DNA of 64,000 nucleotides, taken from contig NZ_QRHA01000001.1 of assembly GCF_003367475.1 (NCBI RefSeq), forward strand, positions 1 to 64,000, given 5' to 3'. The notes under the pieces are model-generated. The model ran no database searches. It was not told the origin of the DNA and saw only the letters and a list, made by a program, of their open reading frames with translations. Below are positions 45,568 through 64,000 of the stretch, one piece after another. Both the position numbers and the translations under genes were made by a program. Source of the stretch: Alteromonas aestuariivivens (GTDB lineage Bacteria; Pseudomonadota; Gammaproteobacteria; Enterobacterales; Alteromonadaceae). The stretch's first letter is position 1. Each line of letters starts with the position of its first letter.

Positions 45568-46766
45568 CCTTGTAACACCTCAATGGGGGCTACGTTGGCA
45601 GCCTGGCGGGCGGGCAAATAGCTGAACGTCATGGAAGTCATTACTGCGACCAAAAACGCGGCTCCATGTGCCCACAGTGGGGCATAAATGGGTACCGCGG
45701 GAACCAGAAGGGCCAGAGTCGAGATGAGAAATTGCGCCAGCGCGAGGCCAATCACACTGGCTGCTATGACCAGCATGAGTGATTCTGTGACAAACAGTCG
45801 GGTGATGAGCCTGCGGCTTGCGCCGATGGCCTTGAGCAAACCAATTTCCTGTCGGCGCTGCTGAACCGAAACCAGGCTCAGATTCATGATTAGGATCCCG
45901 GCCACCAGCAGGCTGATGGCAGCCAGCAAACCCACTACCCCAGTAAGGGTATACATAATGTTGTTGAAGGCACTCATAACGGCCTGCTGGGTGATGATGG
46001 TGATGTCTTCCTCACCCTGATGGCGTTTTTTGATCAGGGCGTAAATACGGTCGATGACAGCCTGTTCGTCGGTGACCGAACTGATGTCGATCAGCAGGCG
46101 GAACAGCGCCTGGGTATTGAACACCGCTTCACTGGCTTTTACCGGGATCAGTATGATGTTACTCAGATCCAGCCCCAGTGATTCCCCCTGGTCAGCAAGC
46201 ACCCCGACTACCCGAAAGCGGTATCCGTCCAGTGTAATCATTTCCCCCAATGGGTTCTGGCGGGCAAACAGTTCCTGTGCCAGACGGGCCCCGAGAATGG
46301 CATCCTGACGGTAGACCCGGTCTGCGTCAGCGGGCAAGCCGGTGCCACTGCCAAATTGCAGTTTACGGGCATGCACAAAGTCGTTGGTGGAGCCAATCAC
46401 CATTGCATCACGTGAAAGGCTTTGGCGGCTGGCCCGGGCGCTACCGGCTATAATGGGCGCCACTCGCACCACTTCGGGGAGCTCGGCGATGCGCCTGGCA
46501 TCTTCCAGGGTGAGATCCCGGTTGGTGCTGCCGTAAAAAGGAATCGCCCCTCCGCTGGTTTGCTTTTTGCCCGGCAGCACAATCAGCAGATTGCTGCCCA
46601 GCATGGCAAACTCCTGTTCGACATAACGCCGTGCGCTCTCCCCCAGGCTCACCAGCACCACCACGGCCAGAACGCCCAGAGCAATGCAAAACGTCAGCAC
46701 GCCGGTACGCCAGCGATGACGGGCGAACAACTGGCTGTTGAAGCTAATAAGGTCGCGGATTTTCAT
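45564..46766 (-). CDS. ABC transporter permease, MacB/FtsX type (first copy)
   Basis: 400 residues with the same layout as the downstream permease: an N-terminal helix, a MacB-PCD domain and three C-terminal helices, ending in PIEVLQG. The two are clearly paralogous but diverged, so the transporter is probably a heterodimer. It overlaps the ATPase gene upstream and the permease gene downstream by 4 nt each (ATGA), giving tight translational coupling. It sits in the inner membrane and transmits ATP-driven motion to the periplasmic domain. Confidence 0.9.
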   Translation of the reverse strand: MKIRDLISFNSQLFARHRWRTGVLTFCIALGVLAVVVLVSLGESARRYVEQEFAMLGSNLLIVLPGKKQTSGGAIPFYGSTNRDLTLEDARRIAELPEVVRVAPIIAGSARASRQSLSRDAMVIGSTNDFVHARKLQFGSGTGLPADADRVYRQDAILGARLAQELFARQNPLGEMITLDGYRFRVVGVLADQGESLGLDLSNIILIPVKASEAVFNTQALFRLLIDISSVTDEQAVIDRIYALIKKRHQGEEDITIITQQAVMSAFNNIMYTLTGVVGLLAAISLLVAGILIMNLSLVSVQQRRQEIGLLKAIGASRRLITRLFVTESLMLVIAASVIGLALAQFLISTLALLVPAVPIYAPLWAHGAAFLVAVMTSMTFSYLPARQAANVAPIEVLQG

Positions 46767-47428
46767 AGCTGGCTGATGACTCCGTCCACCATACGGATAC
46801 GGCGCTGAGCCCGCTCGCCAACTGCGTTATCGTGGGTGACCACAATGAGTGTGATGCCTTCTTTGTTCAGGGCTTCAAGCAGGTGCACAATGTCATTGCC
46901 GGACTGCTGATCGAGATTCCCGGTGGGTTCGTCGGCAAGAATCAAAGTGGGTTGCATCACCAGCGCCCTGGCAATCGCCACGCGCTGCAGCTGTCCGCCT
47001 GATAGCTGGGGGGGGCGGTGCTCGGCCCGATGCGCCAGACCCACCTGTTCGAGCAGTCGATTGACCCGCTGCCGCCGCTCACGGGTGGGCACTTCGGCCA
47101 GTATCAGTGGCAGTGCCACATTTTCAAACGCCGTCAGCCTGTCAATGAGTTGGAAGGACTGAAAAATAAAGCCAATGTAGCGAGCCCGCAGTTCCGCTCG
47201 CTGTTCTTCACCCAACGCCCGGGTTGGGTGCCCTTCGAGGGTGTATTCCCCTTCGTCGATGGTATCCAGCAGGCCGAGCATGTTGAGCAAAGTCGATTTG
47301 CCGGAGCCGGATGGCCCCATAATACTCAGGTAGTCTCCTTGCTCTATTGTCAGGTCAATGTCTTTAAGCACATGAAGGCGGCCCGCCCCTGACGGGTAAT
47401 ACTTGTTGACTCTCTGCAGTTTGATCAC
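46763..47428 (-). CDS. ABC transporter ATP-binding protein (LolD/MacB-type)
   Basis: 221 residues. Walker A is GPSGSGKST (38-46), the Q loop is FIFQSF, the signature is LSGGQLQR, Walker B is [12 protein letters not shown], and the H loop is VVTHD. The GNLD extension is typical of the MacB/LolD/FtsE group. It powers the two permeases encoded next. The GTG start at 47428 overlaps the adaptor stop by 4 nt (GTGA). Gene order is adaptor, ATPase, permease, permease. Confidence 0.95.
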
Positions 47429-48564
47429 GGTTTGGCCTGCTGGGATTGGGCGCTCATACCGGGCTCAAGAGTGGCACCATTGGCAGAGATGACAATCTGT
47501 TCCCCGGCTTTCAGCCCTTGCAGCACTTCGGTGATATGCCAGTTGCTCAATCCGGTTTGAAGGCTGCGTTGTTGTAACTGGCTGTCAACAAGTACCCAGA
47601 CTTGGTTATCGTCAAAAATGGCCTGGGTTGGAATGGCCAGAGCCTGATCGCGGGCGGCAATCTCTATAGTCACATCGGCGCTGTAGCCGACCAGCAGCGG
47701 TTCGTTGACTTCGGCAAACTCTACCTCTACCTCAACAGTACGGGCCCGCTTCTCCTGCGCAAATACATAGGGCGCAATGCGCCTTACCAGCCCCTTGAAC
47801 GGGTGATCCCGATAGGCATCAATGTGAATGTCCACCGGTTGCCCCAGTTTGAGTAAACCGGCATCCACTTCATCGATGGGAGCGCTCACGTAGAAGCAGT
47901 GATTGTCAATCAGATCAACATTCGGCAGGGTTGGGATCCCCGGTGGGGAAGGTGTGGCAAATTCGCCAATCTCGCCGTTAATTTCGGCTATAGTGCCGTC
48001 AAATGGGGCAATCAGTCGGGTTTTGCTCAGCTGCGCCTCAAACAGTTCTACCTGCGCTTCGACCTGCCGGGTGTCGGCCTGGCTGATTAGACAGGCAAGA
48101 GCACTGGCCTTGGCACGTGACACGCTGACATCGAGTTGCTCGTCACTGACCAGCTTTCTGCTAAACAGGGTTTTAAGGCGGGTAGCTTCGCGTTGATCCG
48201 TGTCGGCAATAACGCAGGCCCGCTGCTGATTGAGCTTGGCAGACTGCAACGAAGCCTGGGCCTGGCGTAATTGTGCCTGTATGTCATCGTTGAACAGGCT
48301 CAGCAATACGGTGCCTTCGCTGACCGTATCCCCTTCCGACACCGGAATGGTGGCAATTTGGCCGCCGACGGGCACCGACAGTTTGGCCCGGCGGCAGGAT
48401 TGTACCGAGCCGGAGCGGGTATTGGTGACTGCTTGGGCAACCCGTTGAGGCCCGACGGTCTCGGTGGTTACAACCAGCGGTTGCTGGCGAGAGTAAAGCC
48501 AAATTGCCAATGCAATTCCCGCAATTACCAGCACCAAAAATAATTTCTTCATGTCACCATCCAT
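47425..48564 (-). CDS. MacA-like periplasmic adaptor (HlyD family)
   Basis: About 379 residues. One N-terminal membrane anchor (LFLVLVIAGIALAIWLY) is followed by a lipoyl half-motif (SVPVGGQIATIPVSEGDTV), a helical hairpin at about 95-190, the second lipoyl half (TRLIAPFDGTIAEINGE) and a barrel domain. It would bridge the ABC complex to a TolC channel. Three closely spaced starts exist (GTG 48573, ATG 48564, ATG 48552); the ATG at 48564 has AAGGA about 10 nt upstream, but 48552 is also possible. It is the first gene of the four-gene exporter operon. Confidence 0.88.
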   Translation of the reverse strand: MDGDMKKLFLVLVIAGIALAIWLYSRQQPLVVTTETVGPQRVAQAVTNTRSGSVQSCRRAKLSVPVGGQIATIPVSEGDTVSEGTVLLSLFNDDIQAQLRQAQASLQSAKLNQQRACVIADTDQREATRLKTLFSRKLVSDEQLDVSVSRAKASALACLISQADTRQVEAQVELFEAQLSKTRLIAPFDGTIAEINGEIGEFATPSPPGIPTLPNVDLIDNHCFYVSAPIDEVDAGLLKLGQPVDIHIDAYRDHPFKGLVRRIAPYVFAQEKRARTVEVEVEFAEVNEPLLVGYSADVTIEIAARDQALAIPTQAIFDDNQVWVLVDSQLQQRSLQTGLSNWHITEVLQGLKAGEQIVISANGATLEPGMSAQSQQAKP

Positions 48565-48831
48565 TCCGCTCACATCCTTAAATCCCAGTATGGCAAATTT
48601 GCATGGGGATTGGACTGATGCAGCGCAAGGAAACGCCCATTGGTCGAAATTTTTAAAGCTGCCAGAGCTTTATGTTGCTTAGCAGCCTTTCTCGACTATG
48701 TTTAAACCAGCATAGGTCAAGAATTTGTTCTGTACCCGCTTACGTCCCGGTGGGAGTCCGAATGCAGTAACCGGCCACCAACCTTAGAGGAGTACTCTGC
48801 CAACATGGCTTTCATGTGAGGGAACGATTGA

Positions 48832-52396: not shown

Positions 52397-54817
52397 TTAG
52401 AACTGTGCCTTGAATGCGACGCCAAAATAGCGATCTGCATCACGAGGGATTTGATAACGGAAGTTATCACCGCTGTACGTAGTGGCATAACTGTCGTCAA
52501 GCAGGTTTTTCGCAATGAGTGAAACGCGGAAGGCATCGTCTTTGAACGACAGACCAACACTGGCATTAAGCATATTGTAAGCCGGCAACAGTGAGGCAGG
52601 GTTAAAGCCGCCTGTATTGCCCGGAAGATCGGAATATTGCTCGTCGGTATAAATGTAAGACGCATTATAGAAGACGTCAAAGCCTGACTGGGTTTCCATC
52701 AGGTATTCAGCCGACAGTGAGAATTTCAGGTCTGGGGAGAAAGGCACATCGAGACCTGAACGATCGGTACAGGAGCCGGCCGCCACTTCTACCGGGCAGT
52801 TAAATTTATCAATCTCAGCTTTAGTGTAGGCGGCACCACCGTAGAGCGTCAGGTTGTCTGTCGCATTCCACATGAGATCAACTTCGACACCTTGGGTGGT
52901 AACATCACCGGCATTGGTCAATCGGGTAATACAGGTACCGTCCGAGCAGTCAAAATTGTTTGCCTGAAAACCTTCGATATCGGTGGTGAATACAGCCAGA
53001 TTTAACAGCAGGTCACGACCTGCATACTTGTAGCCAAGCTCGAATGCATCAGACGTTTCAGCACCGATAGTTCTGCCGTCGTTTGCGGGATTAAAGTTGT
53101 AGTAAACGTTAAAGCCCGGGCCTTTATAGCCTTGAGAATAAGTACCATAAATCATCTGATGGTCGGCGATATCAACCTGGATACCGACGCGGCCGGAGAG
53201 GTTGGTTTCACTTACACTTCCCCGGGCATCGGTGTCTTCCGTTGCAGGGCGCACACCCACACCACGGCGGCCGTATTCATCATTATTGACCCGACGGTGC
53301 GTGTACGAGACCTCGTCGTCGGTGTAACGCAGACCGAAAATCAGACGCATGTCTTCGGTGATGTCATAGGTACCATCACCAAAAACCGCCCAGTTGTTAA
53401 ACTCGGTGCTCATGTATGCAGTGGCTGAGACTATGTCGTTGGCGTTACAGCTTACCCCAAGAGAATCGGCATAAGCGTCGAGGTCCGACAGCGCGGTTGC
53501 TAACGCGTCTCCCGAGAGATTATTTTCGGCATAGAATGTCAGAGCCTGATCCAGCTGCCCAGCGTTGTTCTGACAGCTGGCATCACGAGTAAAGTTACGT
53601 TCTGAATCCATGTTCCAATAAAACACGCCAGCCAGGAAATTGAATGGGCCGGACATGTTGGAAGCTACGCGAAACTCCTGTGAAAACTGGCTCCATTCCT
53701 GAGGACCAACATCGTGAAGGAGAAAGGGGGCACCAAATACAGGTTCATTGCTGTCGCCCGCTATCGAGGTAAAATCACCTTCCCGGTACTCTATGTTTTC
53801 CCAGGAGCGTTGTGCGGTAATTGAAGTATAGGTGAAGTCGCCTATGGTCTTGTCTACCTGCACAGAGAATGCGGAGTGATCATCAATGGTGCGCGATTCA
53901 AAATCGTGATCTATGCGGCGCTGCTCCAGGTCAATATCTGCTACACCGTCAACAATACCATTGCTGTCTGGAGCGGCGCTGGAATCAGGGTTTCTGCCGC
54001 TTGGCAGGCCTTCCAGGTCGGCGCAACAGTCATCATTGGCACGGTAGAATTCACTGATGAACTTGACGGAAAGGTCGTCGGAAGGTTCATACAGTACCAC
54101 GGCCCGCGCCCCTTCACGATCGTAACCGTTCACTTTTTCGTTGTTGTAGACATTGTCGATGTAGCCGTCAAACTTACCCTGGAACACCGTCAGGCTGGCT
54201 GAAAGTTCATCAGTCAACCCGCCACTGACGGTGCCTTTTAAGCGGTATTCGTTGTCCTGGTAGAACTCGGTCGACAGGCTGCCGGTAAGATCCTGGGATG
54301 GGTCTTTGGTGGTGATGTTTACCACACCCGCTGAGGCGTTTTTACCAAAAAGCGTACCCTGCGGCCCACGCAGTACCTCAATGCGGTTAACGTCGTAAAG
54401 ATCGGCAAACGCCTGACCAGAACGCCCCATTACGACACCATCAACCACAGTGGCGACACTGGGTTCGGCCGCAATACTGAATGAAATGGTACCGATACCA
54501 CGCACGGTAAGTGCCGAGTTTCGTGTGGTCGTTCCTTTTCTGAAACTTACTGAGGGGACAAGGGCTTGAAGATTTTCAACGTTGTTGGCGAAGGCCGCAT
54601 CAATCTGATCACCACGAAGAACGGAAACCGCGAGTGGTACATCGCTAATGCTTTGTACGCGCTTTTGAGAAGTAACTATAATTTGCTCAAACGATTTTTC
54701 ATTCTCTTTTGCCTCAACTTGCTCTGCCTCTTGAGCAAAACCGTGTGCGCTTACGAGCAATCCAGATGTCATTGCGAGCGTAACAGCCCGATTAACCATC
54801 GACCTTCTTGTATTCAT
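52397..54817 (-). CDS. TonB-dependent receptor of the sulfosugar locus
   Basis: 806 residues. A signal peptide (about 1-30, cleavage HGFA-QE) leads to a TonB-box/plug segment (IIVTSQKR, SVATVVDGVVMGR, IEVLRGPQGTLFGKNAS) and a 22-strand barrel ending in GVAFKAQF. It should import a ligand over the outer membrane, here probably sulfoquinovosyl glycerol or another SQ glycoside (inference from neighbours and shared operator). The ATG at 54817 has GGAG 6 nt upstream; a TTG four codons earlier overlaps that site. Its promoter and palindromic operator lie about 180-230 bp upstream, matching those of the GH31 and reductase operons. A strong terminator follows, so it is monocistronic. Confidence 0.92.
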   Translation of the reverse strand: MNTRRSMVNRAVTLAMTSGLLVSAHGFAQEAEQVEAKENEKSFEQIIVTSQKRVQSISDVPLAVSVLRGDQIDAAFANNVENLQALVPSVSFRKGTTTRNSALTVRGIGTISFSIAAEPSVATVVDGVVMGRSGQAFADLYDVNRIEVLRGPQGTLFGKNASAGVVNITTKDPSQDLTGSLSTEFYQDNEYRLKGTVSGGLTDELSASLTVFQGKFDGYIDNVYNNEKVNGYDREGARAVVLYEPSDDLSVKFISEFYRANDDCCADLEGLPSGRNPDSSAAPDSNGIVDGVADIDLEQRRIDHDFESRTIDDHSAFSVQVDKTIGDFTYTSITAQRSWENIEYREGDFTSIAGDSNEPVFGAPFLLHDVGPQEWSQFSQEFRVASNMSGPFNFLAGVFYWNMDSERNFTRDASCQNNAGQLDQALTFYAENNLSGDALATALSDLDAYADSLGVSCNANDIVSATAYMSTEFNNWAVFGDGTYDITEDMRLIFGLRYTDDEVSYTHRRVNNDEYGRRGVGVRPATEDTDARGSVSETNLSGRVGIQVDIADHQMIYGTYSQGYKGPGFNVYYNFNPANDGRTIGAETSDAFELGYKYAGRDLLLNLAVFTTDIEGFQANNFDCSDGTCITRLTNAGDVTTQGVEVDLMWNATDNLTLYGGAAYTKAEIDKFNCPVEVAAGSCTDRSGLDVPFSPDLKFSLSAEYLMETQSGFDVFYNASYIYTDEQYSDLPGNTGGFNPASLLPAYNMLNASVGLSFKDDAFRVSLIAKNLLDDSYATTYSGDNFRYQIPRDADRYFGVAFKAQF

Positions 54818-54994
54818 TATGTTCTCCAAGTTTCGCTTTTCACGCTTTTGGCCAACGACACCCAGAAGTAGCTTATTGGCAGATCGTTAACATCAAGCGA
54901 TTGATTTTTATTGTATTGACGTAGGGTTAGGGTACAGAACTACGCAATCAGCAATTTATAAAACAGTCTTAAGTGTAACAAGTGTCTTTTGTCT

Positions 54995-55014
54995 AATGTC
55001 TTATATAAGACATT
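54995..55014. promoter_or_regulatory. GntR operator, copy 1 (TonB receptor)
   Basis: A perfect 20-bp palindrome with core ATGTCTTATATAAGACAT. It lies 3 bp downstream of the -10 of the receptor promoter. An extra half-site-like GTCT/GTGTCTTT cluster lies just downstream (54982-54994). The match to copies 2 and 3 makes it a shared regulator site, most likely for the GntR protein encoded at 59163. Confidence 0.9.
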
Positions 55015-55017
55015 GGC

Positions 55018-55046
55018 AGGTTAACCAATTGTTAATGTTATTGCAA
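55018..55046 (-). promoter_or_regulatory. Sigma-70 promoter of the TonB receptor gene
   Basis: On the minus strand TTGCAA (55041-55046), a 17-bp spacer and TAACCT (55018-55023) form a promoter directly upstream of operator copy 1. The same arrangement precedes the other two units. Confidence 0.7.
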
Positions 55047-55130
55047 ATATGCTGTTAATTTTTTTGTTTGTTTTTGTTTCATAATAACTTGGCAAGCGGA
55101 TAGGGACTTACATCCAGTTGAAAATTCGAT

Positions 55131-56858
55131 TCAGAGTAAGTTCGCAGCAAAGCGCTTTAAACCTCGTTCATATCGTACCCTCCACCATTTTTGGCTGAAG
55201 CCAATGGCGATAAGGCACGTTGCCCAGAGCGCGATGAGGCAAGGGAAAAAGGAACGGCTTAATCCGCCAACGAAACCGATGGGCGAGAACAGGAGGTAAA
55301 GTGAAGTCATAAGACCCATAAGTACGATTGCGCAGGGAATAGCGTAACGCCACGGTGTCATATTCACTTCTGCTTTTGGGGTGAAATGCCATGGCTTTGT
55401 TAGTGGGCGGAAATGGCCAATGGTGAGCATGATGGCCAGTTCGATGGCAAACAAAATGGCGTATATGTGAATGAAGTTGAGTTCGACTTCCCAAATGAAC
55501 TTGAGAAAGCCATAGGCGATAACATGAAAGATAATAGCGACCTTTGCCGCAAATGCGGGTACCCGCTTGGTGAACAGACCAACCAGCACGATGGTAATAA
55601 CGGGGATGTTGTAAAAGCCGGTAAATACCCGGATGATTTGCCACAGGCCTTCCGGAGCAAACATAAGCAGTGGTGCGGTGATAAACGACAACACAGCAAT
55701 AATAAGGCTGGTTATTTTTGCCACTCGTATTAATTTTTCATCACTTACTTTGTTTTTTTTCAGCGGTTTATACACATCCAGGCAGAACAACGTAGCCGCA
55801 CTGTTAAGCAGTGAGTTGAATGAACTGAACACCGCGCCCAACAACACGGCTAAAAAGAACCCCGACATATACTGCGGTAAAACATCGTTAACCAGATGCG
55901 GGTATGCGAGGTCGATGGTTTGGAGATTTTCGTCCTGGTAAAGATGATAGGCAATAACACCAGGAAGCATCATCATGAAAGGGACCAGTACTTTGAAGTA
56001 ACCGGAAATGAGTACGCCTTTTTGGCCTTCTACCAGGTTCTTGGCCCCTAGTGTTCGCTGGATGACATACTGATTGGTTCCCCAGTAAAACAGATTGGCC
56101 AGAATCATGCCGGTAAAAATGGTGCCAAAGGGCACGGGGTCATCGGAACCACCAATAGCGTTGAGCTTCTCCGTTTCGGTGGTTGCAATGGTGGTTAATC
56201 CCTGGCTTAAACTGCCGTCGCCCAATGCAATTAAACCCAGAATGGGCACAAGCAAACCAACAATGAGCAGGCCAAAGCCGTTGATGGTATCTGATACCGC
56301 CACCGCCTTCAGGCCGCCGAAAATGGCGTAAAGGGCACCGACAGTGCCAACCACGACAATGGTTAGCACCAGACTCGCTTCGTAGCTGATATTCAGCAGC
56401 CCAGGCACATCAAAGAGTCGAAGTACCGCGATAGAGCCTGAGTATAGTACTGAGGGAATGGTAACCAGCGAGTAACCCACCATAAAGAGTACTACTGTCA
56501 TGCGGCGCACACTGTCGTCAAACCGATCGCGCAGGAACTCAGGGAGCGTGGAAAACGCCCCTGCAAGGTAACGGGGAAGGAAAACCAGTGCCATAATAAT
56601 GGTGGACACACCCGCAGTGACCTCCCAGGCCATGGCGCTGAGATTGTAGCCAAATGCGGACCCGTTAAGGCCTATCAGCTGTTCAGCAGAGAGATTGGTA
56701 AGGATCATGGAACCGGCAATAAAGGTACCGGTGAGCCCTCGCCCGGCGAGGAAATACCCGTCCTGGGTATTTACTTCGCCCTTCGTTTTCATGTAGGAGA
56801 TAACGGCAACCAGTGCCATAAATGCCACGCATGACAATAGGGTAAGGGTGATATCCAT
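55131..56858 (-). CDS. Sodium:solute symporter (SSS/SGLT family)
   Basis: 575 residues with about 14 membrane helices. The family marks are LAGRGLTGTFIAGSMILTN near residues 38-56, the NLSAEQLIGLNG segment and GGLKAVAVSDTINGFGL. It is closest to sugar-type Na+ symporters (SglT/YidK group). It should carry the released sulfosugar or its glycoside across the inner membrane; sulfoquinovose is the inferred substrate. AAGGAG lies 6 nt before the ATG. It is 18 nt downstream of the GH31 gene, so both share promoter and operator copy 2. Confidence 0.9.
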   Translation of the reverse strand: MDITLTLLSCVAFMALVAVISYMKTKGEVNTQDGYFLAGRGLTGTFIAGSMILTNLSAEQLIGLNGSAFGYNLSAMAWEVTAGVSTIIMALVFLPRYLAGAFSTLPEFLRDRFDDSVRRMTVVLFMVGYSLVTIPSVLYSGSIAVLRLFDVPGLLNISYEASLVLTIVVVGTVGALYAIFGGLKAVAVSDTINGFGLLIVGLLVPILGLIALGDGSLSQGLTTIATTETEKLNAIGGSDDPVPFGTIFTGMILANLFYWGTNQYVIQRTLGAKNLVEGQKGVLISGYFKVLVPFMMMLPGVIAYHLYQDENLQTIDLAYPHLVNDVLPQYMSGFFLAVLLGAVFSSFNSLLNSAATLFCLDVYKPLKKNKVSDEKLIRVAKITSLIIAVLSFITAPLLMFAPEGLWQIIRVFTGFYNIPVITIVLVGLFTKRVPAFAAKVAIIFHVIAYGFLKFIWEVELNFIHIYAILFAIELAIMLTIGHFRPLTKPWHFTPKAEVNMTPWRYAIPCAIVLMGLMTSLYLLFSPIGFVGGLSRSFFPCLIALWATCLIAIGFSQKWWRVRYERGLKRFAANLL

Positions 56859-56876
56859 GTACTGCTCCTTAGAGGC

Positions 56877-58946
56877 TTATTGGGCCGGCCAGTAGGCGAG
56901 GTTAGACATATCCATATCGGTATGCTGTACTTCTGGGCCTAGGGCAATACGGATGTCTTTTCGAATAAATACAGCCATCTCGTCGAGCGCCAGTATTTCT
57001 TCTTTGTACTCACCGCCGCGGTGAATTTCATTGCTGCCAAAGCGAACCCATTCACCTTCCGGCAGGTAATATTTTATTTTTCCTCCCGGCACTACACAGG
57101 GAACAACCAGAAGATCGTCGCCGCACATAAACTGGTGCTCAAATGCATGGGCAAGGGGGTCGTCTGGAAGCGCCAGCGCCATAGCACGTTGTACGGGGAG
57201 ACCGGTGTCAGAAGCCTGTCGCGCAGTGGCTGCTAAATAAGGGATAAGTCGGTATCGCAGTTTTAACGCATCAAAGACTGCGTTCGACGCGGCTTCTCCG
57301 TAGGACCAAGGCTCGCGGGGGCCAATGCCGTGAAGTCGCATATGCGCACTGAATACCGATGCTTGTGCCCACCTGACATACAGTTCCGCATCACGGGTAT
57401 CTTTGTAGAAGCCGCCTATATCAGTGGCAAAGAAGGGGCCGCCGGACATTCCCCACGACAAACTGCCGCGGATGCTTGCAGCCAGGCCATGCCAGTCTGC
57501 CTGGGGGTCTCCCCCCCACTGGGAAGGATAACGCTGGCTTCCTGTCCATGCAGAGCGACTAAATAAAAATGGCCCGGTTTTACAATATCTTTCAGCCGCC
57601 TCATAAACACAGCGGTTATAAAGCATGCTGTACACATTGTGTAATCGATGGCCGGTATCGCCGCTGTATGACAGCATGTTGTCGTCTTCCAACTGCTCGC
57701 CAAAGTCGGCTTTGATCATGTCGACGCCCAGATCGAACAACGGCTTATGAGACTCTCGCCAGAATTCAAACGCTTCAGGGTGGGTAAAATCCAAAATTCC
57801 GGAATCAGGCAGCGGTGTAAGTACCTCACCAAACGGACTTAAGTCCCATTCGTAACGATAGGGCTCACCGGTACGTTTGTCCTTGATAAGCCAGCCTTTG
57901 TCGGCAGCTTTTTGGAACAAGGGGTTTTTCACCGAGATCATGGGGTATTCCCATACGCAAATCTTGAAACCCAGTGTTTTTAATTCATCCATAACCGGTT
58001 TGGGATCTGCATAGCGTTTAGGATCCCACTCAAATGCAAAGCGCGTATCGGTGTCCTGCCAGGCACGCCCGTCAAGAGTAATAACATCGCAAGGCATTTT
58101 CTTCTCGCGCACTTCCCGGGCGACGGCAAGCAGCTCTTCGGCATCTTTGTAATACGCTTTGGATAGAATAACGCCCAGGCTCCAGGTAGGAGGTTCAGGG
58201 GCAAACCCAGTAAGTTGACTGTACGTGAGAATGCCTTTTGCCGGGGTGTCGGCGTGATAAATGAACATATCTAGCAGGTCATCTTCGACCATACACACAT
58301 ACGCACGCTGTGACCAAAGGGCGTAACCTACGCCATGTGTTACAGGGGCTGGCGTGTGTACGAACATATTCCAGCCGTTAGGGCTCCAGGCATAGGGCGT
58401 GTTTTTATAGGATTTTTCCGCGTTGACGCCGAGGGCATCATGATTGTACGAGCGCAAGAGCTGGCCGCGCTTGTCAAGCTTGCCCCATTTTTCACCCAGG
58501 CCATAAATCGCTTCATCATAGCCTAGCTCAAGGCTTACCAGCCAGCCTGCTTCTGTTTTGGCAAACGGAGGTAAGCGGTGTTGACGGACGAAATGCCCGT
58601 CAGTGGCACTTTGTTGTATCAGCACATCATTTTTATATAACTTGAAATGCAGAGGGGAAGAATAAAGCTCTACCCGATATTCACCACCTACCAATGTGCT
58701 GTGGCTTTGGGTTCCAGAGTAATACAAGCTTTCCAGATGAGGTTCGGCAGCTAGCATGCCATAGAGGGATGAGTCACCATTTCCGGATTGAATGCGCAAT
58801 CCAAAGTTGCTGATAGACAGTCGTAAATCACCATACTGGGTAGGGACAATCAGTTCGTTGTAGCTAGTCAGAAAGGGCTCGGAGTTTATTTCAGCCGCTT
58901 TTATGTCATTCCAGTTTGGTTCAATTACACTAAACGCATCACTCAT
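56877..58946 (-). CDS. GH31 glycosidase, probable sulfoquinovosidase with an atypical pocket
   Basis: 689 residues, without a signal peptide, so cytoplasmic. The retaining GH31 site is complete: nucleophile Asp414 in MIKADFGE and acid/base Asp480 in QWGGDPQADW. It is YicI-like overall, but in the loop before EWDP it has TRFAFEWDP: Arg302 falls where I recall Arg301 of the sulfoquinovosidase YihQ, which binds the sulfonate, while YicI xylosidase has Trp. The other two YihQ residues (Trp304, Tyr508) are Phe305 and Phe513 here. I infer an SQ glycosidase, or a related sulfosugar enzyme. It heads a two-gene operon with the symporter. The ATG at 58946 is preferred over a GTG at 58961 that touches the operator; neither has a good ribosome site. 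Confidence 0.82.
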   Translation of the reverse strand: MSDAFSVIEPNWNDIKAAEINSEPFLTSYNELIVPTQYGDLRLSISNFGLRIQSGNGDSSLYGMLAAEPHLESLYYSGTQSHSTLVGGEYRVELYSSPLHFKLYKNDVLIQQSATDGHFVRQHRLPPFAKTEAGWLVSLELGYDEAIYGLGEKWGKLDKRGQLLRSYNHDALGVNAEKSYKNTPYAWSPNGWNMFVHTPAPVTHGVGYALWSQRAYVCMVEDDLLDMFIYHADTPAKGILTYSQLTGFAPEPPTWSLGVILSKAYYKDAEELLAVAREVREKKMPCDVITLDGRAWQDTDTRFAFEWDPKRYADPKPVMDELKTLGFKICVWEYPMISVKNPLFQKAADKGWLIKDKRTGEPYRYEWDLSPFGEVLTPLPDSGILDFTHPEAFEFWRESHKPLFDLGVDMIKADFGEQLEDDNMLSYSGDTGHRLHNVYSMLYNRCVYEAAERYCKTGPFLFSRSAWTGSQRYPSQWGGDPQADWHGLAASIRGSLSWGMSGGPFFATDIGGFYKDTRDAELYVRWAQASVFSAHMRLHGIGPREPWSYGEAASNAVFDALKLRYRLIPYLAATARQASDTGLPVQRAMALALPDDPLAHAFEHQFMCGDDLLVVPCVVPGGKIKYYLPEGEWVRFGSNEIHRGGEYKEEILALDEMAVFIRKDIRIALGPEVQHTDMDMSNLAYWPAQ

Positions 58947-58961
58947 CTGCACATTATCCAC

Positions 58962-58981
58962 TATGTCTTATATAAGACATA
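58962..58981. promoter_or_regulatory. GntR operator, copy 2 (GH31-symporter operon)
   Basis: A perfect 20-bp palindrome, core ATGTCTTATATAAGACAT, abutting the -10 element of the GH31 promoter and lying 16 bp before the GH31 ATG. Bound repressor would cover the transcription start. Confidence 0.92.
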
Positions 58982-59009
58982 AGTTAATTAAATGTAACAA
59001 TGGTGTCAA
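58981..59009 (-). promoter_or_regulatory. Sigma-70 promoter of the GH31-symporter operon
   Basis: On the minus strand TTGACA (59004-59009), a 17-bp spacer and TAACTT (58981-58986) lie immediately upstream of operator copy 2. The boxes are identical to those before the reductase operon. Confidence 0.85.
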
Positions 59010-59162
59010 TCAGCAATTGGTAATTTACGGGTAAGTAGGCGTTTAGTCAAAGCGGATATGATTCAGCTAACAGACTCAAGCCTATGTGATTTAAAACAAA
59101 AATGCGCTATAACTCTTGTGTATGATACAATTTTCTGCCGATTTACACTGGGTTAAGGTTAT

Positions 59163-59912
59163 ATGTCAGCATCTCAATTTGACCACAAGCTTGGCGGTCC
59201 AAGCCTGGCCTTTCAGCCTCTTTATCAACAGGTTGCTGAATATATTAAGCAGTTGATTGTTGAACGCAGATGGCTGCCAGGCGAGATGTTGCCCAGTGAG
59301 TTTAAACTGGCTGACGAGCTCAACGTTAGCCAGGGTACGGTTAGAAAAGCGCTTACGTTACTTTCAGACACTAAAATTGTGGCCCGAAGGCAAGGTGTGG
59401 GTACCTTTGTGTCAGAGCGCACAGCACAAGACGCGCTGTATCGATTTTTCCCGCTTCAGGCCGATGGAAAAGGCGCTGAATTGCCAAAGGCCGAATTGCT
59501 CAGCAAAGAGTTGGTTGAGCCACTTGATGTTGTGCAACAGGCGCTGTCTGTCTCAGCCAAAGACAAGGTGGCCAGGTTGAAGCGGCGACGTATTCTTAAT
59601 AATGAATTTTGCATGGTGGAGACCATCTATCTGCCTGCGAAGCTGTTCGCTGACATTGAAAAACGAGAGGATATCCCGCATACGCTATATCACTTCTATC
59701 AGACCGACTACAACCAAACCGTGTTCAAAACCCGGGATAGTCTAAAAGCGGTATTGGCGTCAAAATCCGATGCCAAAAATTTGGGTGTTGAGAAGGGGGC
59801 GCCTCTGTTGCTGGTGACCCGTGTCACCGAATCCATTGACGGCAAACTCATAGAGTATCGCGAAAGCAAATGCCGTACAGATCACTACCATTATCATGTA
59901 GAACTGGATTAA
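59163..59912 (+). CDS. GntR-family regulator, HutC subfamily (UTRA domain)
   Basis: 249 residues. The winged helix-turn-helix covers about 17-83 (LPGEMLPSEFKLADELNVSQ, then GTVRKAL and RRQGVGTFV), and a UTRA ligand-binding domain fills about 105-245. HutC-type regulators bind palindromes and are released by a small pathway sugar or metabolite. The three identical palindromes at 54995, 58962 and 60097 flank this gene and are its obvious targets. It is transcribed divergently from the GH31 gene across 216 bp; no operator copy precedes its own start in the right orientation, so autoregulation is unclear. AAGG lies a few bases before the ATG. SQ or 6-oxoglucose as inducer is inference. Confidence 0.9.
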   Translation: MSASQFDHKLGGPSLAFQPLYQQVAEYIKQLIVERRWLPGEMLPSEFKLADELNVSQGTVRKALTLLSDTKIVARRQGVGTFVSERTAQDALYRFFPLQADGKGAELPKAELLSKELVEPLDVVQQALSVSAKDKVARLKRRRILNNEFCMVETIYLPAKLFADIEKREDIPHTLYHFYQTDYNQTVFKTRDSLKAVLASKSDAKNLGVEKGAPLLLVTRVTESIDGKLIEYRESKCRTDHYHYHVELD

Positions 59913-60068
59913 CCCTGCAATTCCAGTCTGGTCTTTTTCGTTCTCTCTTTTAGCAAAAAAAACAATTGCTTATCTCAATCACACAGCCAGTCGCTGTGCA
60001 TAGATTCCCGCCCCATTCAATTTAACGGAGGCTATCTGCCCCTAAGTAATAACGTTGTTAACATTCTG

Positions 60069-60097
60069 TTGACATGCTTATTGGTGTGTAATAACTT
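60069..60097 (+). promoter_or_regulatory. Sigma-70 promoter of the reductase-dioxygenase-exporter operon
   Basis: TTGACA (60069-60074), a 17-bp spacer and TAACTT (60092-60097) are followed without a gap by operator copy 3. The predicted start falls within the operator near 60104. Confidence 0.85.
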
Positions 60098-60116
60098 GTG
60101 TCTTATATAAGACATA
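60097..60116. promoter_or_regulatory. GntR operator, copy 3 (reductase operon)
   Basis: The 16-bp core TGTCTTATATAAGACA (60099-60114) is perfectly palindromic and identical to copies 1 and 2; one flanking pair is mismatched. It overlaps the expected transcription start and lies 54 bp before the reductase ATG. Confidence 0.92.
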
Positions 60117-60169
60117 GGTGTGTTATTAACGCCTGCTCTCAATACTCATTTACCAAGGTAAATAACGCG

Positions 60170-61123
60170 ATGGAAAAAATACCAGAAGTAGGTTTTGGCT
60201 TTTGGAAAGTGGACAAAGCACAGTGTGCGGATACCACCTATGAAGCGATTAAAGCCGGATATCGTCATTTGGATTGTGCTGCCGATTACGGTAACGAGAA
60301 GGAAGTTGGCGAAGGCATTAGTCGGGCCATTGCTGACGGGCTTTGTACAAGGGACGAACTATGGGTGACATCGAAACTTTGGAATACCTTTCATGCCCCC
60401 GAACACGCAGAGCTTGCACTTGATAAATCCTTGTCGGATCTGCAGCTGGATTATCTGGATTTATACCTCATCCATTTTCCGATCGCGCAAAAATTCGTAC
60501 CGATTGAAACCCGCTACCCGCCAGAGTGGATTGCCGATCCGGGCGCCACCGAGCCGAAAATGGAATTGGCCGCAGTTCCGCTCTACAAAACGTGGGAAGC
60601 GATGGAGCGGCTGGCGGAAAGTGGCAAGGTCAGAAAAATCGGAGTGTGCAACTACAACTCAGGCTTGCTCAATGACTTGATGAGCTATGCACGGATAAAA
60701 CCGGCTATGCTGCAAATTGAGTCTCACCCTTACCTTACGCAAGAGAGACTAATCCGACTGGCCAAACAGTATGGGCTTGATGTAACCGCGTTTTCTCCGC
60801 TAGGGGCACTGTCTTATCTGGAGCTTGAAATGGCTGACCAGGCAGAGTCGGTACTTGAACAGGATGCAGTTAAAACGGCAGCCCGGGCATACGGTAAAAC
60901 ACCGGCGCAAATTGTGCTGCGTTGGGGTATTCAGCGTGGAAACGCCATTATTCCCAAGACATCAAAAATTGAGCGCATGAAAGAAAATCTTGCGTTGTTT
61001 GATTTTTCCCTTAGTGACAGTGAAATGCAGGCGATTTCAGCTTTAAACGTGAATCGTCGGTTCAATGATCCGGGTCAATTCTGTGAAGCTGCTTTTGGTC
61101 GCTTCCACCCCATTTACGACTAG
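60170..61123 (+). CDS. Aldo-keto reductase, probable 6-oxoglucose reductase
   Basis: 317 residues of the (beta/alpha)8 aldo-keto reductase family. The catalytic tetrad is visible: Asp35 and Tyr40 in LDCAADYGNE, Lys69 in VTSKLW and His102 in LIHFP. The NADPH-binding end carries IPKTSKIERMKENL. In oxygenolytic SQ breakdown such a reductase (SquF/SmoB) turns 6-oxoglucose, made by C-S cleavage, into glucose. That role is inferred from the neighbouring dioxygenase and sulfite genes. The ATG at 60170 matches the family start; the longer frame runs into the operator. It is the first gene of a four-gene operon: the dioxygenase gene follows after 9 nt. Confidence 0.87.
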   Translation: MEKIPEVGFGFWKVDKAQCADTTYEAIKAGYRHLDCAADYGNEKEVGEGISRAIADGLCTRDELWVTSKLWNTFHAPEHAELALDKSLSDLQLDYLDLYLIHFPIAQKFVPIETRYPPEWIADPGATEPKMELAAVPLYKTWEAMERLAESGKVRKIGVCNYNSGLLNDLMSYARIKPAMLQIESHPYLTQERLIRLAKQYGLDVTAFSPLGALSYLELEMADQAESVLEQDAVKTAARAYGKTPAQIVLRWGIQRGNAIIPKTSKIERMKENLALFDFSLSDSEMQAISALNVNRRFNDPGQFCEAAFGRFHPIYD

Positions 61124-61132
61124 GAGTGAGTT

Positions 61133-62140
61133 ATGAATAAAGTCAATGGCAATGCCGGTGTTCAATACGCGAAGGTTGACACTCAGCACACTTATGATGG
61201 TGATGTGTTTCCGCAAATAGTCGTAAACAATGCAAACTGTAAAACGCTAGCGGAAACCGTAGCGTTTGTTCAGGCGAATCAGGCGGAATTGGAGGCGAAA
61301 CTTGCTAAGGCCGGTGCGCTTTTATTTCGAGGTTTCCCTATTGACTCGGCAGAAACCTTTGACGTTTTTTCTGCCGCTTTCGGTTATCCTAACTTCACCT
61401 ACCAGGAATCGCTCTCTAACGCGGTGCGCATTAACTTCACTGAGCGTGTTTTTACCGCGAACGAAGCGCCCAAGGATGTTGAGATTTTCTTACATCACGA
61501 AATGGCACAAACGCCTATTTCACCGAGCAAGCTGTTTTTCTTTTGCCAGTCGGCCGCAGAGGAAGGTGGCGCAACACCATTGTGTCGCTCAGACAAACTG
61601 TTTGCCGCGCTCAGAGTTGAAAGCCCGAAATTGGCCAGCGAATTCAAGGAGAAAGGGGTTAAATACACCACTGTGATGCCAGCAGCTAATGATGCAAATT
61701 CAGGTCAGGGCCGAAGCTGGAAAAGTACGCTGAGCGTAGAAACGGTTGATGATGCGGAAGCTAAGCTGAAAGAGCTGGGTTACAGCTGGCAGTGGCTGGA
61801 GGATGGCTGCCTGAAAGCAGTGACACCTGCACTTCCGGCGGTGATTGATTTGGCCGACGGTTCTGAAGTGTTTTACAACCAGCTTATTGCAGCCTATATG
61901 GGGTGGCATGGTGTGCGGGAAAACCCATCGCCAACCATCACTTTTGGTGATGGCAGCCCCATTCCTAAAGATGGTCTCGAACGTATCGCTGAGCTGGCTG
62001 AAGAATTTACCTTCGATCTGGCATGGCAGGATGGCGATGTGGCCATAGTGGATAACTACCGGGCCATGCACGGTCGCCGCCCCTATTCTGGAGACAGAAA
62101 GCGCGTGGTGCTGGTGGCGTTAGTTGCATCTGAGCGATAA
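61133..62140 (+). CDS. TauD/TfdA-family Fe(II)/2-oxoglutarate dioxygenase, probable SQ desulfonase (SqoD-like)
   Basis: 335 residues. The iron site is the clavaminate-synthase variant H-x-E: His121 and Glu123 in FLHHEMAQTP, with the distal His313 in NYRAMHGRRP; Arg324, eleven residues later, binds 2-oxoglutarate. The fold is that of TauD, which hydroxylates the carbon next to a sulfonate so that sulfite leaves. With a GH31 glycosidase, an aldehyde reductase, an anion exporter and a sulfite oxidase around it, the likely substrate is sulfoquinovose, giving 6-oxoglucose and sulfite. I recall such an enzyme (SqoD) from marine gammaproteobacteria; orthology is not proven here. AGGAG lies 6 nt before the ATG. 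Confidence 0.85.
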   Translation: MNKVNGNAGVQYAKVDTQHTYDGDVFPQIVVNNANCKTLAETVAFVQANQAELEAKLAKAGALLFRGFPIDSAETFDVFSAAFGYPNFTYQESLSNAVRINFTERVFTANEAPKDVEIFLHHEMAQTPISPSKLFFFCQSAAEEGGATPLCRSDKLFAALRVESPKLASEFKEKGVKYTTVMPAANDANSGQGRSWKSTLSVETVDDAEAKLKELGYSWQWLEDGCLKAVTPALPAVIDLADGSEVFYNQLIAAYMGWHGVRENPSPTITFGDGSPIPKDGLERIAELAEEFTFDLAWQDGDVAIVDNYRAMHGRRPYSGDRKRVVLVALVASER

Positions 62141-62145
62141 CTCCG

Positions 62146-63153
62146 ATGCATGACCTTGCGGTAAAATGCAGGAACATCTGGCCGGGCCTTGGTATTACCG
62201 CCATCACGGGAATGGCTGCGTTGTTTCTGAGTGAACACTACCACGCGCCTGCAATGTTGTTCGCATTGTTGCTGGGAATGGCGGTGTCATTCCTTTACCA
62301 GGATGACAAGCCCTGTGCGAGTGGTATTGAGTTTACCGCAAGCACCTTGTTGCGAGCGGGCGTTGTCTTGCTGGGCTTGAGAATAGCACTGGGCGATTTA
62401 GCCGTGCTGGGGTGGAAGACCGCTCTTTGGTTAGCCGGGGCCATATTTTTCACCATTGTACTTGGCATTGTGCTGGCGAAATTTCTTGGGCTTCAAAAGC
62501 GCTTTGGTGCTTTGACGGGCGGGTCTGTCTCCATATGCGGTGCGTCCGCAGCGCTGGCGATTTCGACCATTTTACCCAAGGGAGAAAATCATGAGCGCGA
62601 CACACTGCTAACCGTTATTGGCGTGACGGCGATGTCGACCATCGCCATGGTGGTATACCCCATTGTGGTTGATCAATTGGGGATGAACGACACCGAGGCG
62701 GGTATTTTCCTGGGCGGCACTATTCACGATGTTGCACAGGTTGTGGGGGCGGGTTATTCGGTATCACAGGATGCCGGCGATATGGCCACTTTAACCAAGC
62801 TGGTACGGGTGGCAATGCTCGTGCCGGTGGTCATCATTATGATGATGGTGATAAAGCGATTCTATACCGCAAAAAACCAGGCTGACAGCGCAAACGTTCC
62901 AAAAATGCCGCTGTTTCTGGTGGGCTTTATATTGTTGATGTTACTCAACAGTTTTGTTGCTCTGCCCAGCGTGGTGATTGAAACGGGTACCTCAATCTCG
63001 CGCTTTTTCCTTGTGGTTTCCATTACTGCAATTGGCATGAAGTCAAACCTGGGCAAGCTAGCTGAGGTGGGCGTGCTTCCGATTGTCATCATAGTCACTG
63101 AAACCCTTTGGATAGGGCTGTTTATTCTTGGCTACCTGTACCTGATCAAATAA
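62146..63153 (+). CDS. YeiH-family anion exporter (putative sulfite/sulfate)
   Basis: 335 residues with about ten membrane helices. The family motif GGSVSICGASAALAIS is present, as are LLRAGVVLLGLRIALGDL near the first third and GGTIHDVAQVVGAGYSVS. YeiH proteins are annotated as putative sulfate exporters, and several sit beside sulfonate-degrading enzymes. Here it would remove toxic sulfite from the cytoplasm so that the exported sulfite oxidase can act on it outside (inference). It starts 5 nt after the dioxygenase stop and has no clear ribosome site, suggesting translational coupling. Confidence 0.88.
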   Translation: MHDLAVKCRNIWPGLGITAITGMAALFLSEHYHAPAMLFALLLGMAVSFLYQDDKPCASGIEFTASTLLRAGVVLLGLRIALGDLAVLGWKTALWLAGAIFFTIVLGIVLAKFLGLQKRFGALTGGSVSICGASAALAISTILPKGENHERDTLLTVIGVTAMSTIAMVVYPIVVDQLGMNDTEAGIFLGGTIHDVAQVVGAGYSVSQDAGDMATLTKLVRVAMLVPVVIIMMMVIKRFYTAKNQADSANVPKMPLFLVGFILLMLLNSFVALPSVVIETGTSISRFFLVVSITAIGMKSNLGKLAEVGVLPIVIIVTETLWIGLFILGYLYLIK

Positions 63154-63216
63154 GCGATTCGCGGGCGATTTTCGCTCGCGTTCGCAAGCAGGCTTTCACA
63201 AAACGAGGTGTGAACA

Positions 63217-64000
63217 GTGAAAAGACGCGGCCTTCATGAACTCTACGCAGAAGACCCGGTAAAAGCGGACGAAAGTGTGTTTGGCAGAACCACTAACGGC
63301 GTTACGCGAAGGGGTTTTCTCTCTGGTTTGAAATCAATGTCGCTGCTGCTGGGCGCTGAGATTGTGTACGGACAGTTTATGCCAGCAGGGTTGATCCCTG
63401 CTGCATTTGCACAGTCGGATTCACCCTTTGTAATCGAAGGCAAAGACGGGCTGGTGATACTTAACGATCGGCCAGTCAATGCTGAAACACCTGCTCATTT
63501 ACTTGACGACGACGTTACACCGGCGTCGCGTTTTTTCGTACGCAATAATGGCATCGTTCCACAAAGCCCCGATGCCAACAGCTGGACCCTTACCATTGAA
63601 GGTGAGTCAGCAAAACAATCCAGAACATTCTCCCTCAATGAACTGAAACAACAGTTCAAGCACTATACCTACCAGTTAACGCTCGAATGCGGTGGCAACG
63701 GGCGAGCAGAGTTTTCGCCTGCAGCCACCGGTAACCAGTGGACGACTGGGGCAGTGGGGTGCCCCAGCTGGACGGGTGTGCGCTTGAAAGACGTACTGGA
63801 CGCCGTGGGTATAAAAGACGATGCAGTCTACATTGGCTATTACGGTGATGATCAGCATTTGAGCAGAACGCCAGGCAAAGCGGCGATATCAAGAGGCGTA
63901 CCTGTTGATAAAGCAATGGAGGACGAATCCCTGATAGCCTGGGCAATGAATGGCAAGCCTTTGCCGCTTATGAACGGATTTCCGCTGAGACTGGTTTTCG
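63217..64000 (+). CDS. Tat-exported molybdopterin sulfite oxidase/dehydrogenase (5' part, cut by the window end)
   Basis: The first 261 residues are in the window; the frame stays open to base 64000. A twin-arginine signal (TRRGFLSG at 30-37, hydrophobic to the AFA-QS cleavage near 65) predicts periplasmic export of the folded protein. The molybdenum ligand Cys158 lies in LECGGNGR, as in SorA/SorT-type enzymes, followed by VGCPSWTGVRL. It should oxidise sulfite to sulfate, passing electrons to a cytochrome c. The GTG at 63217 has GAGG 8 nt upstream. It is the fourth gene after the reductase, dioxygenase and exporter (63-nt gap). A cytochrome subunit may follow beyond the window. Confidence 0.88.
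   Translation, partial: MKRRGLHELYAEDPVKADESVFGRTTNGVTRRGFLSGLKSMSLLLGAEIVYGQFMPAGLIPAAFAQSDSPFVIEGKDGLVILNDRPVNAETPAHLLDDDVTPASRFFVRNNGIVPQSPDANSWTLTIEGESAKQSRTFSLNELKQQFKHYTYQLTLECGGNGRAEFSPAATGNQWTTGAVGCPSWTGVRLKDVLDAVGIKDDAVYIGYYGDDQHLSRTPGKAAISRGVPVDKAMEDESLIAWAMNGKPLPLMNGFPLRLVF

Follow-up and report, generated by a model that had tools for sequence, protein, structure and literature searches.

A candidate sulfoquinovose regulon of sulfo-SDO type in Alteromonas aestuariivivens with a GH31 glycosidase outside the known sulfoquinovosidase clade

The window analysed here, the first 64,000 nucleotides of contig NZ_QRHA01000001.1 of Alteromonas aestuariivivens, ends in a row of genes that includes a family GH31 glycosidase, a GntR/UTRA regulator, an aldo-keto reductase and a TauD-fold dioxygenase. 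Judging from sequence comparison, we read this locus as a GntR/UTRA-controlled regulon for the sulfolytic degradation of sulfoquinovose (SQ) by a route of the sulfo-SDO type, with a probability of about 0.8. Direct observations carry this reading: the content and order of the genes, a common operator that has no further copy in the genome, the exact joint occurrence of the GH31, reductase and dioxygenase genes among the genomes examined, and the link between dioxygenase genes and SQ genes. The most interesting part of the locus is a predicted third lineage of sulfoquinovosidases (SQases), to which the GH31 enzyme would belong.

Gene order and the shared operator

Lists of open reading frames (ORFs) and domain scans of the window recovered all eight adjacent genes named by the initial annotation of this DNA, in the families it had assigned. 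They are given here with the operator copies and the cytochrome gene that follows.

52397-54829, reverse strand: TonB-dependent outer-membrane receptor of 810 residues (PF00593/PF07715), probable SQ-glycoside importer, with an operator about 170 bp upstream
54997-55012: palindrome TGTCTTATATAAGACA, copy 1, exact, upstream of the TonB receptor gene
55131-56858, reverse strand: sodium:solute symporter, YidK-like, for inner-membrane uptake (NCBIfam PRK10484, 732 bits, cut-off 401)
56877-58961, reverse strand: GH31 glycosidase (GH31c, a YicI-related clade), proposed SQase; nucleophile region KADFGE, motif D297-G-R299-A-W-Q-D-T...T-R307-F
58964-58979: palindrome copy 2, between the GH31 and regulator genes
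59163-59912, forward strand: GntR/UTRA regulator (PF00392, PF07702), presumed binder of the three palindromes
60099-60114: palindrome copy 3, upstream of the reductase row, overlapping the GTG start of the longest reductase ORF
60170-61123 (longest ORF 60098-61123), forward strand: aldo-keto reductase (PF00248), xylose/aldose-reductase-like, proposed 6-dehydroglucose reductase
61133-62140, forward strand: TauD-fold Fe(II)/2-oxoglutarate dioxygenase, proposed SQ dioxygenase, SqoD-like but of a separate clade
62146-63153, forward strand: YeiH-like membrane protein (PF03601; TIGR00698 at 159 bits, below its cut-off of 232.6), proposed sulfite/sulfate exporter
63217-64000 and on to contig position 64518, forward strand: SorA/SorT-like sulfite dehydrogenase of twin-arginine translocation (Tat) type, a molybdenum oxidoreductase
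64505-64909 of the contig, beyond the window: c-type cytochrome of 134 residues with one CxxCH, after the molybdenum enzyme

In the proposed route, SQ glycosides, which are sulfosugars of plants and algae, would enter through the TonB receptor and then the sodium symporter, and the GH31 enzyme, presumably cytoplasmic, would split them to SQ. By analogy with SqoD, C-S bond cleavage by the dioxygenase would draw on Fe(II), 2-oxoglutarate and O2 and would release sulfite, leaving 6-dehydroglucose. The aldo-keto reductase would then convert 6-dehydroglucose to glucose, while sulfite would be exported by the YeiH-like protein and oxidised to sulfate by the Tat-exported molybdenum enzyme and the c-type cytochrome.

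A perfect 16-bp palindrome occurs in three copies: before the TonB receptor, in the gap between GH31 and regulator, and before the reductase. When the whole genome (3.85 Mb) was searched with up to two mismatches, these three sites in the locus were the only ones found, and the reversed control gave none; the chance expectation in the window, with up to three mismatches, is 0.18 sites. To follow the locus in other genomes we used relatives of the dioxygenase in genome contigs, taking the best 80 of the 162 found, so that all counts out of 80 refer to the best-matching half. At loci L018-L056, with up to three mismatches allowed, a site upstream of the reductase is kept at 34 of 39 (reversed control 0/39), one upstream of GH31 at 16 of the 23 that could be examined, and one upstream of the TonB receptor at all 15 that have a complete related receptor and its upstream stretch; reversed controls for the latter two gave none. 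More distant loci carry an operator site, with up to two mismatches, in 2 of 41 cases. The three operator-led units are one regulon under joint control, and we infer that the GntR/UTRA protein binds the palindrome. The initial annotation had added a TonB importer and a sulfite-oxidation module to the SqoD route. The receptor has its operator in common with the rest of the locus, and the genes for sulfite oxidation stand in one row with the reductase and the dioxygenase.

The operator also bears on the start of the reductase. Its longest ORF begins on copy 3, which makes the GTG start unlikely, and the ATG at 60170 is most likely the true one. Among 16 near-identical reductase genes elsewhere, 12 align only from residues 13-23, and three of the other four align earlier only across stop codons.

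Transport genes vary among the loci. The symporter gene is present at 37 of 80, and the TonB receptor is less constant than the other genes of the locus, with a match of at least 54% at 22 of 80. Upstream of the locus in the window (45564-48573) lie genes named by eye as a MacB-like permease, an ABC ATPase and a membrane-fusion-type protein, an ordinary-looking efflux cluster.

Linkage of the dioxygenase to sulfoquinovose genes

Among 60 genomes near that of the window, the dioxygenase, GH31 (at least 80%) and reductase (at least 83%) occur in the same 17, the window's own genome included. Alteromonas strains that carry the locus include A. portus, A. gracilis and A. hispanica. In 394 genomes of the order, the dioxygenase is found in 10 (E up to 1e-90) and GH31 (at least 61%) in seven, all of them among the 10; below these, the GH31 list (E up to 1e-100) continues with YicI orthologues at 37-38%. 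The remaining three dioxygenase genomes (L152-L154), those in which GH31 does not reach 61%, have the dioxygenase (57-58%) and the reductase (70%) close to other SQ genes. In L152 a YihQ gene (54% to E. coli YihQ) lies about 4 kb from the reductase, and in L153 and L154 the pair is near YihS and a piece of YihU (70% and 73%; about 5 and 8 kb). The last two genomes possibly combine two SQ routes in one island. Genes for a DctP binding protein, a DUF1611 protein and an enolase-superfamily protein stand beside the sulfo-EMP genes in L153.

A further SQ gene came to light through clustering. At 32 of the 80 loci we observed a Gfo/Idh/MocA protein of one cluster, and the three members compared with PDB match 8qc2/8qc3 with E values of 6e-60 to 3e-108, the next family reaching 7e-24 or weaker; 8zn9, an entry that bears no functional name, is an equally strong match. 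Passages of PMC10755693 name 8qc2 and 8qc3 as GH188 SQase entries and report GH188 in sulfo-SDO clusters, and passages of PMC11465081 give R166, L170 and K172 as sulfonate-binding residues of GH188. These residues are kept in 32/32 of the GH188-type proteins, of which those beyond the three compared with PDB were identified by clustering and the residue check. A protein with the GH188 motif also accompanies the homologue of the dioxygenase in Marinobacterium aestuarii (M. aestuarii) and 11 of 12 kin loci; none was seen in the examined stretch of L126. At L090 there is instead a YihQ-type SQase (871 bits, cut-off 553). The dioxygenase family is thus tied to SQ by three kinds of SQ gene, namely GH188, YihQ and YihS/YihU, and SQ is well supported, on this comparative ground, as the probable substrate of the dioxygenase.

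Two observations on the same loci may be recorded here. A gene cluster with GH42 (scanned in L035) recurs at 11 loci, 10 of them with GH188: L035 and the Erythrobacter-type L075, L077-L079, L082, L088, L089, L091, L092 and L097. At L075 and L077 a gene of this cluster directly precedes GH188. In Singulisphaera (Planctomycetes; L072, L074) a dioxygenase of 55-56% and a reductase of 59-61% are present, with neither GH31c nor GH188 in the examined stretch.

In the genome of the window, tblastn of ten E. coli yih-region proteins against a 20-kb stretch around the locus matched only GH31, and the SQ isomerase YihS had no match in the whole genome, in a search without positive control. Sulfo-EMP was dropped as a route of this genome on the latter result, with that limit. 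The initial annotation had stated that no sulfo-EMP, sulfo-ED or sulfo-TAL genes are present; the yih and YihS searches agree with it, while sulfo-ED and sulfo-TAL were not searched genome-wide.

The identity of the dioxygenase was approached by comparison with M. aestuarii, which passages of PMC12890257, citing Ye et al. 2023, give as the source of SqoD in the sulfo-SDO (sulfo-ASDO) pathway with SqoD and SquF. The single homologue found in that genome (L123:9564-10544) is identical to PDB 9yut over 326 residues and is taken to be the presumed SqoD. Its neighbours are a GH188-type protein, a GntR/UTRA-like regulator, an aldo-keto reductase and, by eye, a gene like that of a small subunit of a tripartite ATP-independent periplasmic (TRAP) transporter. 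The window dioxygenase shares 35% identity with it over 317 residues, and its H121-x-E123 and H313 align with H99-x-D101 and H255 of TauD. TauD proper was rejected as its identity (24 bits, no real alignment). In the dioxygenase tree, from which the plant protein At3g21360 was left out, 13 SqoD-like proteins (Balneatrix family) form their own clade with support 100/100, the distant homologues L136 and L137 falling outside this group. The window dioxygenase lies outside the SqoD clade and inside a 14-row Alteromonas clade (support 100/97).

TauD-fold enzymes are functionally broad, many hydroxylating substrates without a sulfonate, and the best fold match of the window dioxygenase is At3g21360 (PDB 1y0z; 34-35% identity, template modelling score 0.87-0.89), with 9yut not among the 50 fold matches listed. 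That the enzyme hydroxylates a non-sulfonated substrate is nevertheless highly improbable, given the sulfite export and oxidation genes in the same row, the linkage to SQ genes, and the core residues it shares with the M. aestuarii clade. The same chemistry on another 6-sulfo sugar, or on SQ in an unusual linkage, has more in its favour. The GH31 enzyme is not of YihQ type and GH188 is absent, the dioxygenase clade stands apart from SqoD, and the GH42 cluster at 11/80 loci hints at varied glycosides. Against this, three genomes have this dioxygenase-reductase pair no more than about 8 kb from YihQ or YihS/YihU, and at 32/80 loci the dioxygenase has GH188 nearby; we regard this alternative to SQ as distinctly unlikely. 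Plants make sulfolipid. The closeness of At3g21360 to both dioxygenases raises the question whether plants have an SQ dioxygenase.

The GH31 glycosidase and the weighing of alternatives

The initial annotation had based the glycosidase step on the presence of SQases in GH31. A GH31 enzyme is indeed present and co-occurs with the dioxygenase, but that argument alone did not justify the step, because the enzyme lies outside the known SQase clade. It scores 417 bits with the YicI model PRK10658 (cut-off 606) and 213 bits with the YihQ-type model PRK10426 (212.9; cut-off 553). In direct matches it reaches 333 bits to YicI, with about 33% identity, vs 149 bits to YihQ. Being under both cut-offs and differing in its site residues, it is a member of neither type. 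A small GH31 tree places GH31c and YicI on one branch with YihQ apart; as the tree is midpoint-rooted and its few rows other than GH31c are on very long branches, it shows grouping only, and three GH31c fragments shorter than 600 residues were left out of it. In the fold list, entries titled sulfoquinovosidase appear at ranks 44 and 48. A blastn search of the GH31 gene against E. coli gave no match. No signal peptide was seen by eye. The second GH31 of the genome, on a very long branch, is 27% identical to the window enzyme, 26% to YihQ and 23% to YicI.

The motif DGRAWQDT with TRF is found in all 26 GH31c rows that cover the region (two fragments lack it), and neither YicI nor four of its close relatives have it. 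Opposite D306-C307-F308 and W315 of YicI, GH31c shows invariant G298-R299-A300 and R307 (DGRAW vs DCFW), and the alignment places R299 as an extra residue between C307 and F308 of YicI. We take C307 and F308 to shape the YicI pocket at the sugar C6. In GH31c, the scaffold of a YicI-type alpha-xylosidase could have had its pocket beside the sugar C6 remodelled around Arg299 and Arg307 to hold the sulfonate. We read the two residues in this way because the arginines are invariant, the cluster is one for a C6-sulfonated sugar, and no other recognised SQase is present. The AlphaFold model of the enzyme has a mean predicted local distance difference test score of 81, but of 52 in block 301-310 and 66 in block 311-320.

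GH31c and GH188 are found at 27 and 32 of the 80 loci, respectively, and in the examined stretches never together (0/80). In the window's genome the best GH188 match is 25% over about 100 residues (E 7e-7), too little for membership of the family, and GH188 was dropped as its glycosidase for this reason.

Several observations weigh against the SQ regulon as we read it, or against parts of it. The GH31 enzyme is nearest to YicI by sequence and by fold (best PDB and fold matches). Residues Q288, R301 and W304 of YihQ, whose positions were checked and which presumably serve its sulfoquinovosidase function, have no like residues in it, the loop aligning poorly. Neither GH31c nor GH188 is seen in the examined stretch of 21/80 loci; L090, one of these, has YihQ, and several lie on short contigs. 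The split between GH188 and GH31c loci also follows lineage, so that their mutual exclusion is in part a matter of descent. The TonB receptor was not found in the examined stretches of the close relatives L021, L022 and L028-L030, and the SorA-, YeiH- and GntR-like proteins score under the curated cut-offs of the nearest named families. Finally, the window dioxygenase matches At3g21360 (210 bits) almost as well as it does the M. aestuarii protein (228 bits), which itself is closer to At3g21360 (269 bits) than to the window dioxygenase (222 bits).

The YicI-type matches are what one would expect if the GH31 enzyme had a neighbouring function, as alpha-xylosidase or alpha-glucosidase, and free SQ were all that the strain used. 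Its presence in the same genomes as the dioxygenase (17/17 and 7/7), the shared operator, and the replacement of C307-F308 and W315 of YicI by G-R-A and R make this rather unlikely. On balance we lean towards GH31c being an SQase with its origin on the YicI branch and not among the YihQ-type enzymes, and thus a third, independently evolved SQase lineage. With a similar degree of reserve we favour a broader proposal that joins this lineage and its Arg299/Arg307 pocket in an Alteromonadales-type sulfo-SDO variant, which would also have its own recruited reductase and a closed regulon of three operators. If GH31c is an SQase, surveys built on YihQ or GH188 alone would overlook the use of SQ glycosides by Alteromonas and its relatives, and sulfonate recognition would have arisen convergently in GH31, in a route that had also exchanged its reductase.

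Reductase, sulfite oxidation and comparison with known systems

The aldo-keto reductase ends 9 bp before the dioxygenase, and at 70/80 loci a reductase of this type precedes the dioxygenase in the same orientation; L094, scored as lacking it by ORF clustering, has one by tblastn. Its best PDB matches are the xylose/aldose reductases 5zci, 5z6t and 1jez. The M. aestuarii reductase, only 24% identical to it (40.8 bits), matches best to 7bby/7bbz (E 1e-96), which we take to be SmoB although the PDB name is aryl-alcohol dehydrogenase. Neither entry is among the best 60 PDB matches of the window reductase, which by these comparisons is not of SquF/SmoB type and falls in a different aldo-keto reductase subfamily from the M. 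aestuarii enzyme. The M. aestuarii kind was recognised at 10 of the 13 SqoD-group loci. At Hellea and Pontixanthobacter loci (L086, L087, L090) the dioxygenase is of the window kind and the window-type reductase is missing; L086 and L090 were confirmed to carry an aldo-keto reductase from a different cluster. It seems that the reductase has been exchanged between variants of the pathway.

The molybdenum enzyme is complete in the contig (433 residues, to 64518). With its molybdenum and dimerisation domains (PF00174 and PF03404), a TRRGFL Tat signal at residue 30, the cysteine motif ECGGN at 157 and a partner cytochrome, it is probably a divergent SorA-like sulfite dehydrogenase; the L018 ortholog scores 240 bits, short of the SorA cut-off of 600 and of equivalog level. 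An extra gene lies between GH31 and regulator at 11 of the 15 loci L018-L032 (for example L018:6052-6804), and the one scanned encodes a TauE/SafE protein (PF01925) of a sulfite-exporter family. In the window this gap is too small for such a gene.

According to passages of PMC10755693, very large amounts of SQ are produced, and genes for SQases serve to recognise its use in genomes and metagenomes; Alteromonas and relatives are named among key organosulfur degraders around algae in passages of PMC13372026. The latter also recognise sulfo-SDO by an SQ dioxygenase homologue and an oxidoreductase in one cluster, and the locus offers a dioxygenase of 35%, an adjoining aldo-keto reductase and linkage to SQ genes. 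In the passages searched, short of whole papers and supplements, we found no account of GH31c as a lineage, of the reductase exchange or of the operator, which does not establish their absence from print.

The initial annotation had likened the locus to the SqoD route and proposed alignment with SqoD and SquF. The route stands in outline on comparative evidence, with a dioxygenase that aligns only distantly with the presumed SqoD and sits in a separate clade, and with a reductase that does not follow SquF. Like the M. aestuarii cluster, the locus joins a TauD-fold Fe(II)/2-oxoglutarate dioxygenase, an aldo-keto reductase, a GntR/UTRA regulator (32%) and a glycosidase. It differs in the subfamily of the reductase, in having GH31c in place of GH188 and a TonB receptor with a sodium symporter in place of an apparent TRAP transporter (by eye), and in adding the YeiH-like protein, the SorA-like enzyme and the cytochrome. 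With the GH31 SQases (YihQ 5aed; 5ohs), the glycosidase shares the GH31 barrel, the catalytic Asp motifs and the expected role, but it is on a separate branch and the YihQ-type residues do not align. The alpha-xylosidase YicI is its nearest characterised relative, from which it departs at C307-F308 and W315. The reductase resembles the SmoB/SquF type in standing beside a C-S cleaving oxygenase, whereas its matches are to xylose/aldose reductases. The molybdenum enzyme corresponds to SorA/SorT with cytochrome c in its domains, Tat motif, ECGGN and adjacent CxxCH protein, and differs in its divergent score. Sulfo-SDO in Alteromonadaceae is already in print, as passages of the literature indicate; the pathway is not new in this family, and the present locus is most likely a variant of it with a different sugar-releasing enzyme and a different reductase.

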